From a virus: 30,573 nt of DNA. Of the stretch, positions 2,660-29,392 are shown in pieces. Numbering within the stretch: the stretch's first letter is position 1; every line of letters starts with the position of its first letter. Under the pieces are notes generated by a model that was not told the DNA's origin, did no database searches, and saw nothing but the letters and a program-made list of their open reading frames with translations. Location of the stretch: positions 1 to 30,573 of IMG/VR virus record IMGVR_UViG_3300042473_000196; one strand, 5' to 3'. A program made the translations under genes and the position numbers.

Positions 2660-3109
2660 ATGACACGAGAAGAAAGATGCAAGTTAGCTATTGAGCGAGG
2701 ATATACCTACGATCCTGAAACTGGGTTTATTTATAATAAATTTGGTAAAACTTCAAAGCCACTAAATCATAGTTATATTTCAATTGGTATAGCATTAAAT
2801 GGTAAAACTTATAGAATACTTGGACATCAATTTGCTTGGTATTGGGTAAATAAAGAATGTGTTGAATTTATTGATCATATTAATGCAGTTAAAACAGATA
2901 ATAGAATTTGTAATTTACGAGCTGTTACACACCAACAAAATCACTTTAATAGAATAACAGCAAAAGGTTATCATTGGCATATATCATCGCAAAAATATAT
3001 TGCTCAAATTAGAATTAATTATAAAGCAATTCATTTAGGTTTATTCAATACCGAAGAAGAAGCCCGAAGCGCATATTTAGCAGCAAAAGAAATTTATCAT
3101 AAAATTTAA
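2660..3109 (+). CDS. HNH homing-type endonuclease with AP2-like DNA-binding domain
   Basis: This 149-residue protein has an HNH core around residues 55-98: LGHQFAWYW, IDHIN with H73, the D80-N81 pair, NLR, and the QQNHFNR segment typical of free-standing phage HNH enzymes. The C-terminal third (KGYHWHISSQKYIAQIRI, then HLGLFNTEEEARSAYLAA) is a textbook AP2-type DNA-binding domain. Such HNH-AP2 proteins are usually selfish homing endonucleases. It is inserted between an early gene and ERF, has its own ATG in a copied leader, and is more AT-rich in codon choice than the structural genes. Its target is unknown. The interrupted terL is one candidate site, but nothing here ties them together. Confidence 0.88.
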   Translation: MTREERCKLAIERGYTYDPETGFIYNKFGKTSKPLNHSYISIGIALNGKTYRILGHQFAWYWVNKECVEFIDHINAVKTDNRICNLRAVTHQQNHFNRITAKGYHWHISSQKYIAQIRINYKAIHLGLFNTEEEARSAYLAAKEIYHKI

Positions 3110-7460: not shown

Positions 7461-7895
7461 ATGGCAAAAGTAGGAAGACCAAGAAACTTAAACAGCCCTG
7501 AACAACTTTACGAACTATTTGAAAACTATAAATCATACGTAAAGGCGAATCCAAGGTTAAAAATAATACATGGAGGTAAAGACTTCGAAGAAAGAGTAGA
7601 ACCATTAGAATGTCCTCTAACAATGGAAGGTTTTGAAATTTATTGTTGGAACGAAGTAGGATGCGTTGAGGACTATTTTAAGAACACGGATAAAAGATAT
7701 TCAGAATATACTCCTATCTGTTCACGTATACGCAAAGAAATACGCAAAGACCAAATAGAAGGAGGCATGGTAGGACAGTATAATCCAAGCATTACACAGC
7801 GTTTAAACAACTTAAAAGAACAAGTTGAACAAACTAATATTGAACAACCTTTATTTAAATTAGATGATAATAACGACAGCAATAAGGAAGATTAA
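7461..7895 (+). CDS. terS: Terminase small subunit
   Basis: This 144-residue protein starts MAKVGRPRNLNSPEQLYELF, a basic GRPR start followed by a helical DNA-recognition region. The middle (PLTMEGFEIYCWNEVG, CVEDYFKN, YTPICSRIRKEIRKDQIEGG) is typical of small terminase subunits of Bacteroidota phages, where one short helix-turn-helix is followed by an oligomerisation helix. The tail is acidic. It is placed directly before the large subunit, whose restored start at 7864 lies inside its last 32 bases. The subunit should recognise phage DNA for packaging. Confidence 0.82.
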   Translation: MAKVGRPRNLNSPEQLYELFENYKSYVKANPRLKIIHGGKDFEERVEPLECPLTMEGFEIYCWNEVGCVEDYFKNTDKRYSEYTPICSRIRKEIRKDQIEGGMVGQYNPSITQRLNNLKEQVEQTNIEQPLFKLDDNNDSNKED

Positions 7896-9063
7896 CGCCC
7901 TAAAAAAACGGATAAAAATTATCCAGGGCGGAACTTCCGCTCTTTATCCCCCTATGAATTAAGTAGTAGGGGGAGACAATGCAGGTAAAACTTACGGAAT
8001 TTTGCCCGTGTTAATTACAAAGGCTGCTACTTATCCAAGAACTGAAATAAGCGTAGTTGCTGAAACAATACCACATTTAAGAAGGGGAGCGTTAAAAGAC
8101 TTTCTAAAAATAATGAAAGACACTGGGCGTTACTTCGATGAACGTTTTAATAAATCACTTTTAAGATACGAATTTGCCAATGGGAGTTTTATTGAATTTT
8201 TTAGTGCGGATGATAGCTCTAAGCTACGTGGTGCTCGGCGTGACATTCTTTATATTAACGAATGCAATAATGTTACCTTTGAGTCTTATAATGAACTTGC
8301 TATACGGACTAAAAAAGAAGTATTTTTAGACTTTAATCCGGCAAATGAGTTTTGGGTGCATACTGAACTAAAAGACGAACCCGATTCCGAGTTTATAATT
8401 CTTACTTATAAGGATAACGAAGCCTTAGACAAATCAATAGTTGAACAAATAGAAAAGAACCGTTTAAAAGCCGAAACAAGTAGCTATTGGAGTAATTGGT
8501 GGCGTGTGTACGGATTAGGTGAAATAGGAATGCTTGAGGGCGTTATATTCAGTAATTGGAAACAAATAGACGTACTACCAAAAGAAGCAAAGTTAATCGG
8601 GATAGGTTTAGACTTTGGTTATACAAATGATCCTACTTCTGCAATAGAGATTTACAATTATAACGGAACACGAATCCTCAACGAATTAGTTTACCAAACA
8701 GGAATGTTAAACAGCGATATAGCTAAAAGACTTCCAAAGAACGTTGTAGTTTATGCGGATAGTTCAGAACCTAAATCAATTGACGAAATAAGACGCTACG
8801 GAATAACAATTAAAGGCGTTACAAAGGGCAAGGACTCAATAAACTACGGAATCGATGTTATGCAACAACAAGAATATTTAGTGACGTCTAACAGCGTTAA
8901 TTTAATCAAAGAACTTAGGGCGTATTGTTGGGACGTAGACAAAGCAGGAACCCGATTGAACAAACCTATTGACACAAATAACCACGCTATTGATGCGCTG
9001 AGATACCATGAAATGGAAACGCTCGGTTTAAAAAGAAATTACGGCACATATAATATACGTTAA
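7864..9063 (+). CDS. terL: Terminase large subunit, P-loop interrupted by a 42-nt element with an in-frame stop
   Basis: Downstream of 7984 the protein is a clear large terminase: GKTYGILPVLI, SVVAETIPHLRRGALKDF, the Walker B strand DILYINEC, the coupling LDFNPANEF, and a nuclease domain with LDFGYTNDP, VYADSSEP and NHAIDALRY. The expected N-terminus lies upstream in the same frame from the ATG at 7864: MIITTAIRKINALKK, then RIKIIQGGTSA. Between GGTSA and GKT are 42 nt (7942-7983) with a TAA at 7960-7962. Without that insert the protein would be 385 residues with a perfect Walker A, GGTSAGKT. Conventional reading gives either a 32-residue stub or an ATPase lacking its P-loop from a TTG at 8002. 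The gene must be packaging-competent in a viable phage, so bypass, excision, readthrough or a contig error has to be considered. Confidence 0.85.
7896..7940 (+). other. RNA hairpins just upstream of the terL insertion
   Basis: CGCCCT (7896-7901) pairs with AGGGCG (7925-7930), and inside it GGATAA (7910-7915) pairs with TTATCC (7919-7924) around AAA. An alternative hairpin, GCGGA/TCCGC (7928-7932 and 7936-7940), excludes the outer stem. Both end at or in the GGA codon that precedes the insertion. Confidence 0.6.
7942..7983 (+). other. 42-nt candidate translational bypass element in terL
   Basis: This segment splits the codons for GGTSA and GKT of the Walker A loop. It contains a perfect 8-bp hairpin, TCCCCCTA (7947-7954) with TAGGGGGA (7967-7974), and the only in-frame stop of the gene (TAA, 7960-7962) lies in its 12-base loop. 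The length is a multiple of three. GGA codons at 7930-7932 and 7972-7974 are exactly 42 nt apart, as are the Ala codons GCT (7939) and GCA (7981). Skipping from either codon to its partner restores a valid Walker A motif (GGDNAGKT or GGTSAGKT). The resemblance to the T4 gene 60 bypass is inferred, not shown. Confidence 0.6.
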
Positions 9064-24353: not shown

Positions 24354-26030
24354 ATGGCAAATAGTAACGGTTGGGGTGACGGCTCAGTAAATAATAATAT
24401 AGGTTGGGGTCAAGGCGCAAACAACGCAATAGGTTGGGGAGATATTCACGCAGATAGTTGGGCGGGTTTAACTGATATTGTAGGGGTTACAACGCCACCA
24501 GTAGACGCAGATGCACAAGCATTCATAACAGCGGCTGCAATAACAGACCCTACTCAACAAACAGCTATTAATACTTTAGTAGTTGACTTGAAAGGTTATA
24601 ATGTTTGGAGTAAAATGAAAGCTTTGTACCCATTTGTGGGGGGTACAGCTTCACAGCATTCTTACAATCTACGCAACACATCACAATTTCAAATAACTTG
24701 GAATGGTGGGGTAACTCATTCTACTAATGGAGTTCAATACAATGGAACTAATTCCTACGGAAATACAAATTTTAATTGCGATACAAATACTACAATATTA
24801 AATAATTGTGTTGGAGCATATTCAAGAACAAATGTATTAGGCAACTCCTCTTGGGGAGCTATGAGTAGTCTTAATTATAGAGGACTTTTTTTGAGTATTA
24901 AAGGAACTGACAATAATAGTTATTATTCTGCAAATGATTATATAGTAACAGGAAGCGGGAACTTTGTATCAGATACAAGAGGATTTTATATTGTAAACAG
25001 GGAATCGCTATCATCTAAAAGACTATACAAAAACGGTACTTCTTTAACTTCATCAAACCCTAATACAGTTGACAGCACTTTTAATGGGAATCTTTTTTTA
25101 GGAGCAAGGAATATAAACAATACTTCTGTTGATGCTTACGATAATAAGCAATATGTTTTTCAATTTATGGCTGATACTTTAACAGCAACTGAAATAGGAA
25201 ACCTACACACAGCAGTACAAGCATTTCAAACAACATTAGGTAGGTCAATAGGCACACAAACAGTTTCAGATGCAGATGCTCAAGCTTTTGTAACAGCAGC
25301 AAATATAGTTGACCAAGTAGAAGCTAACGCTATTAACAACCTTGTTATAGGAATGAAAGCGGATGGTCTTTGGACAAAGATGAAAGCAATTTATCCGTTT
25401 GTGGGAGGCACAGCTGCTACTCATAAATTTAACCTGAAAAATCCTTTAGATACGGATGCAGCGTTTAGAATACTTTGGAGCGGTGGCGTAACTCATTCAA
25501 TTAATGGTGTTCAATTTGGCGGAGTTAATGGAATTGGAAATACTAATTTTAACCCAAGCATAAATAGTTTATTAAATTCTACTCATTTTAGCTTTTATTC
25601 AAGAACCATTACAAGTTCAAATATATTCGAAGTTGATTCAGGTGTTACTTCATCAAGCAATGCTTTAAATTTACTTTCACTTAGAGTATCCAATATTACT
25701 TACGCTGCTATAAATTCAGCGGCTACATATACAACTTTTGCGGATTCAGATTCGAGGGCTTTTTATTTAGCAAATAGAACGGCGTCAAACGCATTAAACA
25801 TTTGGCGTAATTCAGTAAAAGCAGCAACGGGCACAACTACTTCAAACACTTTACCAAATGGAAATCATTGGTTAGGAGCTTTCAATAATATAACAAGCCC
25901 TGGCTCTTTGTATTATTCAACAAAACAATGTGCTTTTGCTTCAATAGGTGACGGTTTAACAGACACTGAAGCAGCTAACCTATATACAACAGTACAAGCA
26001 TTCCAAACAGCATTAAATAGAAACGTATGA
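24354..26030 (+). CDS. Two-module receptor-binding / fibre protein
   Basis: This 558-residue protein opens with three GWG-type segments (SNGWGDGSVNN, NIGWGQGANN, AIGWGDIHAD). Two homologous halves follow, at about residues 50-300 and 304-556. Both start with DADAQAF(I/V)TAA, continue with A(L/I)YPFVGGTA and NGGVTHS or SGGVTHS and then NTNF, and end with TxxEIxNLHTAVQAFQTTL-like helices. The middle parts resemble a concanavalin-type lectin fold by strand pattern only. This looks like a duplicated adhesive module that recognises the host surface. Divergence of the middles suggests different ligands or different positions on the tail. Confidence 0.77.
   Translation: MANSNGWGDGSVNNNIGWGQGANNAIGWGDIHADSWAGLTDIVGVTTPPVDADAQAFITAAAITDPTQQTAINTLVVDLKGYNVWSKMKALYPFVGGTASQHSYNLRNTSQFQITWNGGVTHSTNGVQYNGTNSYGNTNFNCDTNTTILNNCVGAYSRTNVLGNSSWGAMSSLNYRGLFLSIKGTDNNSYYSANDYIVTGSGNFVSDTRGFYIVNRESLSSKRLYKNGTSLTSSNPNTVDSTFNGNLFLGARNINNTSVDAYDNKQYVFQFMADTLTATEIGNLHTAVQAFQTTLGRSIGTQTVSDADAQAFVTAANIVDQVEANAINNLVIGMKADGLWTKMKAIYPFVGGTAATHKFNLKNPLDTDAAFRILWSGGVTHSINGVQFGGVNGIGNTNFNPSINSLLNSTHFSFYSRTITSSNIFEVDSGVTSSSNALNLLSLRVSNITYAAINSAATYTTFADSDSRAFYLANRTASNALNIWRNSVKAATGTTTSNTLPNGNHWLGAFNNITSPGSLYYSTKQCAFASIGDGLTDTEAANLYTTVQAFQTALNRNV
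24501..26018 (+). repeat. Diverged tandem duplication of a fibre module
   Basis: Module 1 covers roughly 24501-25240 and module 2 about 25269-26018. The conserved landmarks are GATGCACAAGC/GATGCTCAAGC near their starts, a YPFVGGTA-coding stretch, GTAACTCATTC, and GTACAAGCATT(T/C)CAAAC at their ends. Between these landmarks the copies are strongly diverged. Confidence 0.75.
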
Positions 26031-28816: not shown

Positions 28817-28995
28817 TACCAAAAGACGAAGCCTTTAGTTTAGTTCAACACTTCTTTATTGAATTGAATTTAAGAGATTATAAGAAAGCAAAAGAATGCG
28901 CAATATATTTATCTCATTCCATGATTAGAGAAACGTTGGACGTAGAACGTATAAAGTATTGGAAAACTGTAGTTAACGAAATCGAAAAGCTATGA
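28813..28995 (+). CDS. Hypothetical 60-residue protein with EIEKL end
   Basis: The gene overlaps neighbours by four bases. The product (MIPKDEAFSLVQHFFIELNL) is helical, with RDYKKAKECAIYLSHSMIRE in the middle, and ends VVNEIEKL. The last codons, GAAATCGAAAAGCTATGA, are nearly identical to the ends of the next two genes, so a junction segment seems to have been copied along this operon. Confidence 0.68.
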   Translation: MIPKDEAFSLVQHFFIELNLRDYKKAKECAIYLSHSMIRETLDVERIKYWKTVVNEIEKL

Positions 28996-29183
28996 CACCA
29001 AAAGAAGCAAAAAAATATTTAAAGCAATATTTAGATACTCATAATAATGAATTTCCGATTGTTGATGAAATAGCACTTAGATTGCATACTCCATTAGTTA
29101 TTTCAGATATAACATTTATAGGTTTATTGTGTATTGCTTATGATTTAAGACCAATAGAAAAACACGAAATTGAAAAGCTATGA
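28992..29183 (+). CDS. Hypothetical 63-residue protein with KHEIEKL end
   Basis: The product (MTPKEAKKYLKQYLDTHNNE) has an acidic and helical first half and a hydrophobic middle (PLVISDITFIGLLCIAYDL) too polar at its edges for a confident membrane helix. It ends EKHEIEKL, like the following gene. It overlaps both neighbours by four bases. No family is recognised. Confidence 0.67.
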   Translation: MTPKEAKKYLKQYLDTHNNEFPIVDEIALRLHTPLVISDITFIGLLCIAYDLRPIEKHEIEKL

Positions 29184-29392
29184 AAAATTATAGATTAGTT
29201 GTTCAAACAACAAGACCAATAGACCACCATAAAAGCGTAGTTTGTTATGACGATGCAATTATGATTAAACGTGAAGATGGAATTATATTTAAAAAAAATT
29301 CTTGTAATGGTGAATTATTAGCCTATTACCCTTTAACTTGGGCTATTGAAATAACTGAAGTTGTATTTAAACACGAAATTGAAAAGCTATGA
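29180..29392 (+). CDS. Hypothetical 70-residue protein with KHEIEKL end
   Basis: The product is beta-rich (KNYRLVVQTTRPIDHHKSVV, YDDAIMIKREDGIIFKKNS, LAYYPLTWAIEITEVVF) and ends KHEIEKL. The final 23 bases are identical in this gene and the one before, and nearly so in the one two positions upstream. It overlaps both neighbours by four bases. The function is unknown. Confidence 0.67.
   Translation: MKNYRLVVQTTRPIDHHKSVVCYDDAIMIKREDGIIFKKNSCNGELLAYYPLTWAIEITEVVFKHEIEKL

Follow-up and report, generated by a model that had tools for sequence, protein, structure and literature searches.

We analysed a 30.6-kb viral contig (the window; 30,573 nucleotides, IMG/VR record IMGVR_UViG_3300042473_000196) in which the gene for the packaging ATPase is interrupted within its ATP-binding site. 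It carries ordinary siphophage genes (terS, terL, portal, tape measure, NinG, Erf and exonuclease), and we saw one copy of terL in it, the start of which is overlapped by the 3′ end of terS (Table 1). Read from the ATG at 7864, the terL frame gives ...KIIQGGTSA LYPPMN* VVGGDNA GKTYGIL, with the TAA in the loop of a hairpin. A sequence-only reading had described a terminase P-loop split by a 42-nt hairpin element with a stop and had suggested translational bypassing; the split proved real, and all of its positions were correct (TAA, 7960-7962; 8-bp stem, 7947-7954/7967-7974; GGA codons, 7930 and 7972; GCT, 7939; GCA, 7981). Elsewhere in the window, a 20-nt sequence, ACGAAATTGAAAAGCTATGA, occurs in three near-identical copies at consecutive small-gene junctions (28976-29392), so that several small ORFs share an ...EIEKL end and overlap the next ATG, and a 558-aa protein (24354-26030) has halves that resemble an internal duplication (DADAQAF..., ALYPFVGGTA / AIYPFVGGTA).

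Table 1. Features of the interrupted terL locus in window coordinates
Feature	Position	Strand	Basis
terS (terminase small subunit)	7461-7895	+	Pfam GP3_package, E 7e-9; phrog_606 terminase small subunit
terL 5′ coding part, 26 codons, MIITTAIRKINALKKRIKIIQGGTSA, the last being the putative take-off codon	7864-7941	+	
5′ hairpin GGATAA-AAA-TTATCC within coding sequence	7910-7924	+	Folds; carrier-specific upstream structure
5′/take-off stem-loop AGGGCGGA-ACT-TCCGCTCT, includes the putative take-off codon	7925-7943	+	Folds
Putative take-off codon GCT (Ala)	7939-7941	+	GCN in 38/38 Ala-type elements, GCA never
42-nt insert (39-nt putatively untranslated gap plus putative landing codon)	7942-7983	+	Absent from uninterrupted relatives
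Gap hairpin TCCCCCTA...TAGGGGGA, GAA/GUA internal loop, UUAA top	7947-7974	+	
Putative landing codon GCA	7981-7983	+	G-Y-N here in 37/38 Ala-type elements
terL 3′ coding part (GKTYGILPVLI...), resuming at GGT 7984	7984-9063	+	Terminase_3, Terminase_3C

Genes with and without the insert are both present among 80 related terL loci. Most read GGTSA(G/S/A)KT uninterrupted, and the 5′ part of terL is homologous and unbroken in relatives, while four loci (L003, L004, L005 and L014) carry a 42-nt insert at the same codon with the same core as the window. Exact and gapped pattern scans spanning the P-loop, which reach terL genes only where the P-loop is spelled in this way, found about 75 contigs interrupted at this site, from uncultured relatives of Bacteroidota phages. 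They contain 46 distinct inserts of 32-50 nt, many of them related, so that counts over the family are not counts of independent events. In 38 of the 46 (Ala type) the insert lies between a GCN codon and the next codon; in the other eight (Gly type) it lies one codon further on, between GGN and GGN. Insert lengths fall into all three classes modulo 3 (27, 10 and 9 inserts), and a hop between the paired codons restores the frame in 46/46. CAG-type pattern scans found no inserts of 2-25 nt or 59-89 nt at the site in terL.

A scan for the insert core returned 14 contigs, every one with the core in the terL P-loop; the loop 16-mer TATGAATTAAGTAGTA, searched alone, gave 30 matches, and since these are unrelated, terL was the only place where the core hairpin was found. 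Searches of annotated phages and plasmids yielded no similar DNA, and other ORF junctions with a hairpin and matched codons in the terL loci examined were, outside terL, chance-like matches only. A genome scan returned at least one carrier among the matches listed, a 3.3-kb contig in a Chitinophagales metagenome-assembled genome (MAG; L404, JAAFHG010000431.1), and no further carrier was found in 398 Chitinophagales genomes. In the isolates FPSV-S2 and TCUEAP1, the annotated terL is one gene that runs through the site without a break.

Every insert contains a hairpin built on a C-run and a G-run, beginning 5-7 nt (about 6) after the last sense codon. The upper stem varies between families with its pairing kept: we counted 25 distinct covarying stems, with T-A, A-T, C-G, G-C and G-U pairs at stem levels 4-9. 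The cap is often a GNRA tetraloop, and in the window's own insert family a conserved GAA/GUA internal loop lies beneath NNNA. The sequence-only reading had treated the stop in the loop as an ingredient of the hairpin. In the window this stop is part of the UUAA loop and is absent in sister elements, and the loops of L239 and L275 have none, so it is not essential.

The codons flanking the gap follow a rule. Ala-type landing codons are GCA (23), GTA (8), GCT (4), GCG, GTT and ATA (1 each; n = 38). G-Y thus occupies the landing position in 37/38 elements, compared with 14/456 (3%) at other tail positions, and the ATA of L404 is the sole exception to G-Y-N. Codons of the form G-C-N can be paired by an Ala anticodon (xGC), and so can those of the form G-U-N, through a G-U pair in the middle; the second landing base, Y, pairs with G35 of this anticodon as C-G or U-G. 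The take-off codon is GCT, GCC or GCG, with GCA in 0/38, and the landing codon ends in A in 32/38, so a simple target-site duplication does not account for the pair. In Gly-type elements the landing codon is GGN in 8/8 and GGA in 7/8; GGA makes up 15/82 Gly codons at the site in uninterrupted genes. Take-off and landing codons can therefore be paired by one tRNA, as in bypassing of the T4 gene 60 type. The MAG with the carrier has tRNA-Ala GGC, and UGC was not recovered from this incomplete genome. A stop directly follows take-off in 3/46 elements and stands at the second codon in 21/46; the window has CTT after take-off. Bypassing of the gene 60 type includes an SD-like sequence a short way before landing; in the terL inserts the hairpin G-run mostly ends 6-9 nt ahead of the Ala landing codon, but Bacteroidia ribosomes sequester their anti-SD (PMC9976891).

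The coding sequence just upstream is also structured. The 48 coding nucleotides before the insert have a mean minimum free energy of −15.4 kcal/mol in carriers, compared with −5.6 in non-carriers. Against synonymous shuffles (mean −5.8), the carrier fold has a z of −3.96 and the non-carrier fold −0.55; when the shuffles take their codons from the upstream regions of the carriers themselves, a stricter pool, the values are −2.33 and +0.75. Gly-type elements share a 9-bp stem whose last position is the first take-off base, with five pairs changed on both sides and 86.7% of cells able to pair, compared with 79.1% when shuffled (0/500 shuffles). The GVQ subgroup of the Ala type has an 8-bp stem, 95.8% paired, with two double-changed pairs. 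Among carriers of the window's clade, nearly all variation in these 48 nt is synonymous, and the window's hairpin at 7910-7924 is kept in L003 and L004 as GGATTA/TAATCC, that is, with both sides changed. The segment 7920-7995 of the window folds better than its shuffles (z −3.0). A 5′ stem-loop upstream of take-off, as in bypassing of the T4 gene 60 type, is thus present, and it is strong in interrupted genes only. A basic KKRIKII about 10 amino acids before take-off is equally present in uninterrupted relatives.

These features indicate that the insert is very probably a programmed translational bypassing element, and we infer that the interruption is resolved on the ribosome. The ribosome would translate 26 codons as far as GCU (7939), where the hairpin about 6 nt downstream would stall it. 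Peptidyl-tRNA-Ala would then release GCU, and the 5′ stem-loop, which ends at or over the take-off codon, would refold behind the ribosome and favour a forward slide. The same tRNA would re-pair at GCA (7981), 39 nt on, and decoding would restart at GGU, giving the product IIQGGTSA/GKTYG, the sequence of the uninterrupted relatives. In other carriers the same process would cross untranslated gaps of 29-47 nt, with take-off at GCN and landing at GYN, or with take-off at GGN and landing at GGA. The predicted Ala-hop product aligns with D6 TerL (5oe8) over both domains. We know of no demonstration of efficient bypassing in Bacteroidota.

Could the insert instead be removed before translation? An unknown splicing or excision activity might take it out of the mRNA as a minimal intron and leave the mature message continuous, which would account for a P-loop restored precisely in every carrier whatever the frame, and for a strong hairpin inside the insert. 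However, the window has no Rfam intron match, and at 32-50 nt the inserts are smaller than any intron that we know of in bacteria or phages. Splicing also leaves unexplained the G-Y-N rule and the A-ending landing codons, gives no reason why the second landing base changes from C only to U, and none for a stem-loop that stops at the take-off codon and is encoded through synonymous choices. We consider it unlikely. Programmed excision or phase variation at the DNA level, in which packaged or expressed genomes would lack the insert, is very unlikely. It fits the patchy presence of the insert among close relatives, but no near-identical pair with and without it was found (the best downstream identity was 93%). 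The two codons show no direct-repeat logic, their third bases differing systematically, and the upstream coding stem-loop and the landing-codon rule are again unexplained. That rule would be natural for re-pairing of a peptidyl-tRNA, and we see no obvious reason for it under splicing or DNA excision.

A split ATPase, made as two polypeptides by termination in the insert and then re-initiation downstream or a separate start, would suit the 0-frame stops found in 45/46 inserts. It is nevertheless hardly to be expected, as the resume frame lacks ATG, GTG and TTG in 39/46 elements. The first such start in the window, TTG 8002, lies past the Walker A lysine, so a product beginning there could not bind ATP. 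Moreover, TerL downstream of the insert is under purifying selection like that of intact genes: dN/dS is 0.05-0.09 between the window and other carriers of its clade, and 0.03-0.09 for moderately diverged carriers against 0.067 for non-carriers, with several pairs near synonymous saturation. The Terminase_3 score is 57.8 bits for the Ala-hop product, 55.0 for a GGA to GGA product, 50.0 for the part after the stop and 39.3 from TTG 8002.

The sequence-only reading had offered two codon pairs for a hop. Its GCT/GCA pair is conserved across the family as GCN and G-Y-N, whereas its GGA/GGA pair is not. A hop from GGA 7930 to GGA 7972 (product IIQGG-DNAGK) draws on two matched codons 42 nt apart in the window and would keep a Walker A motif, but L003 has GGT and L014 has GGG in place of the upstream GGA, the downstream GG belongs to the hairpin G-run, and the Terminase_3 score is below that of the Ala hop. 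Inserts of 43 nt (L091) and 44 nt (L085) shift the frame, which a GCT to GCT hop restores exactly and which is regained through the Ala codon only. Because the GGA take-off is unconserved, the GCN/G-Y-N pair is conserved and these inserts depend on the Ala codon, we favour GCT to GCA and give the GGA hop almost no credence. The remaining possibilities, TAA readthrough, an assembly error or a pseudogene, are scarcely conceivable: the window's insert taken alone is in frame, but L091 and L085 exclude readthrough, as do relatives with out-of-frame inserts of 40, 41, 37 and 38 nt, inserts in all three length classes leave it no explanatory role, and about 75 independent contigs with purifying selection on both sides of the insert rule out the others.

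The putative bypassing elements also seem to move. Inserts are scattered over a terL tree (169 rows, FastTree), on which their presence needs 22 changes, at least 17 of them forced by well-supported branches, the exact number being soft; the forced changes may be gains or losses. Over the 60 nt before the insert the window does not differ from L089, and their inserts are 98% alike; identity falls to 57-80% within the next 45 nt, and the nearest uninterrupted genes resemble L089 more downstream than upstream. This pattern points to recombination that moves the 5′ stem-loop and the gap together, as a cassette of about 100 nt. The two parts may also exchange separately, because L305 and L239 are nearly identical over the 60 nt upstream and have inserts only 64% alike. 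On balance, we lean towards a mobile family of bypass cassettes that are autonomous, about 100 nt long and made up of a 5′ stem-loop, a take-off codon, a hairpin gap and a landing codon. They would move among phages and lodge in the terminase Walker A loop, and the hop there may also serve to regulate DNA packaging or to set its timing. The window encodes, 4.8 kb upstream of terL, a free-standing HNH endonuclease with an AP2-like C-terminus (2660-3109; phrog_99, HNH_3), a typical homing-type gene. It was not found in the other terL carrier loci examined, nor was any linked endonuclease.

If the mobile family is real, programmed bypassing in phages would gain its first large natural family, one with both Ala- and Gly-tRNA versions. 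Its 46 covarying sequences include natural mutants and would separate the essential parts (landing-codon pairing, 5′ stem-loop and hairpin spacing) from the dispensable ones (adjacent stop and peptide signal). In many phages an essential packaging ATPase would be called wrongly by gene finders, and the family would lead one to ask why a motor should tolerate such an element in its active site, or make use of it there.

Efficient programmed bypassing has so far comprised one well-proven phage gene, T4 gene 60, in which a 50-nt gap is crossed from GGA to GGA, and the byps of yeast mitochondria. Two proposed cases are also close to ours. The 29-nt hop in a Prevotella loescheii adhesin likewise concerns a Bacteroidota gene, but it is a single case, and according to PMC5009743 it proved hard to reproduce in E. 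coli and had no follow-up. Streptomyces phage Hau3 shares a proposed bypass in a phage terminase gene; the remark on it in PMC5009743 places a UUA codon at the centre of a much shorter gap and describes no hairpin family. It was the only mention of terminase bypassing in the literature that we searched. The Magnusiomyces capitatus byps resemble the terL inserts in being many, short and variable in length, with matched or near-matched codons and a mobile-looking distribution. The byps are removed by bypassing, as the terL inserts would be. They are described as working largely regardless of context, with an unused codon in the A site (PMC5009743), whereas the terL inserts occupy one conserved site in one phage gene rather than mitochondrial genes, have a 5′ stem-loop in coding sequence and use common A-site codons such as CTT and TTT. 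Gene 60 uses a 5′ stem-loop, a take-off stem-loop and matched codons, and its sliding is highly processive, up to 56 nt (PMC11194080, PMC5009743). With a 5′ stem-loop, a hairpin gap and matched codons, the terL inserts have matching anatomy, and a hop over a hairpin gap, with its gene 60 analogy, is what survives best of the sequence-only reading, without its GGA codons and its role for the loop stop. Unlike gene 60, the terL inserts have no stop directly after take-off in 43/46 cases and no evident KKYK-like, carrier-specific nascent-peptide signal, and their hosts seem to belong to the Bacteroidota, in which the ribosome keeps the anti-SD hidden. Gene 60 is one topoisomerase gene, whereas the terL inserts form a large and diverse family in which the predicted hop is often on Ala.
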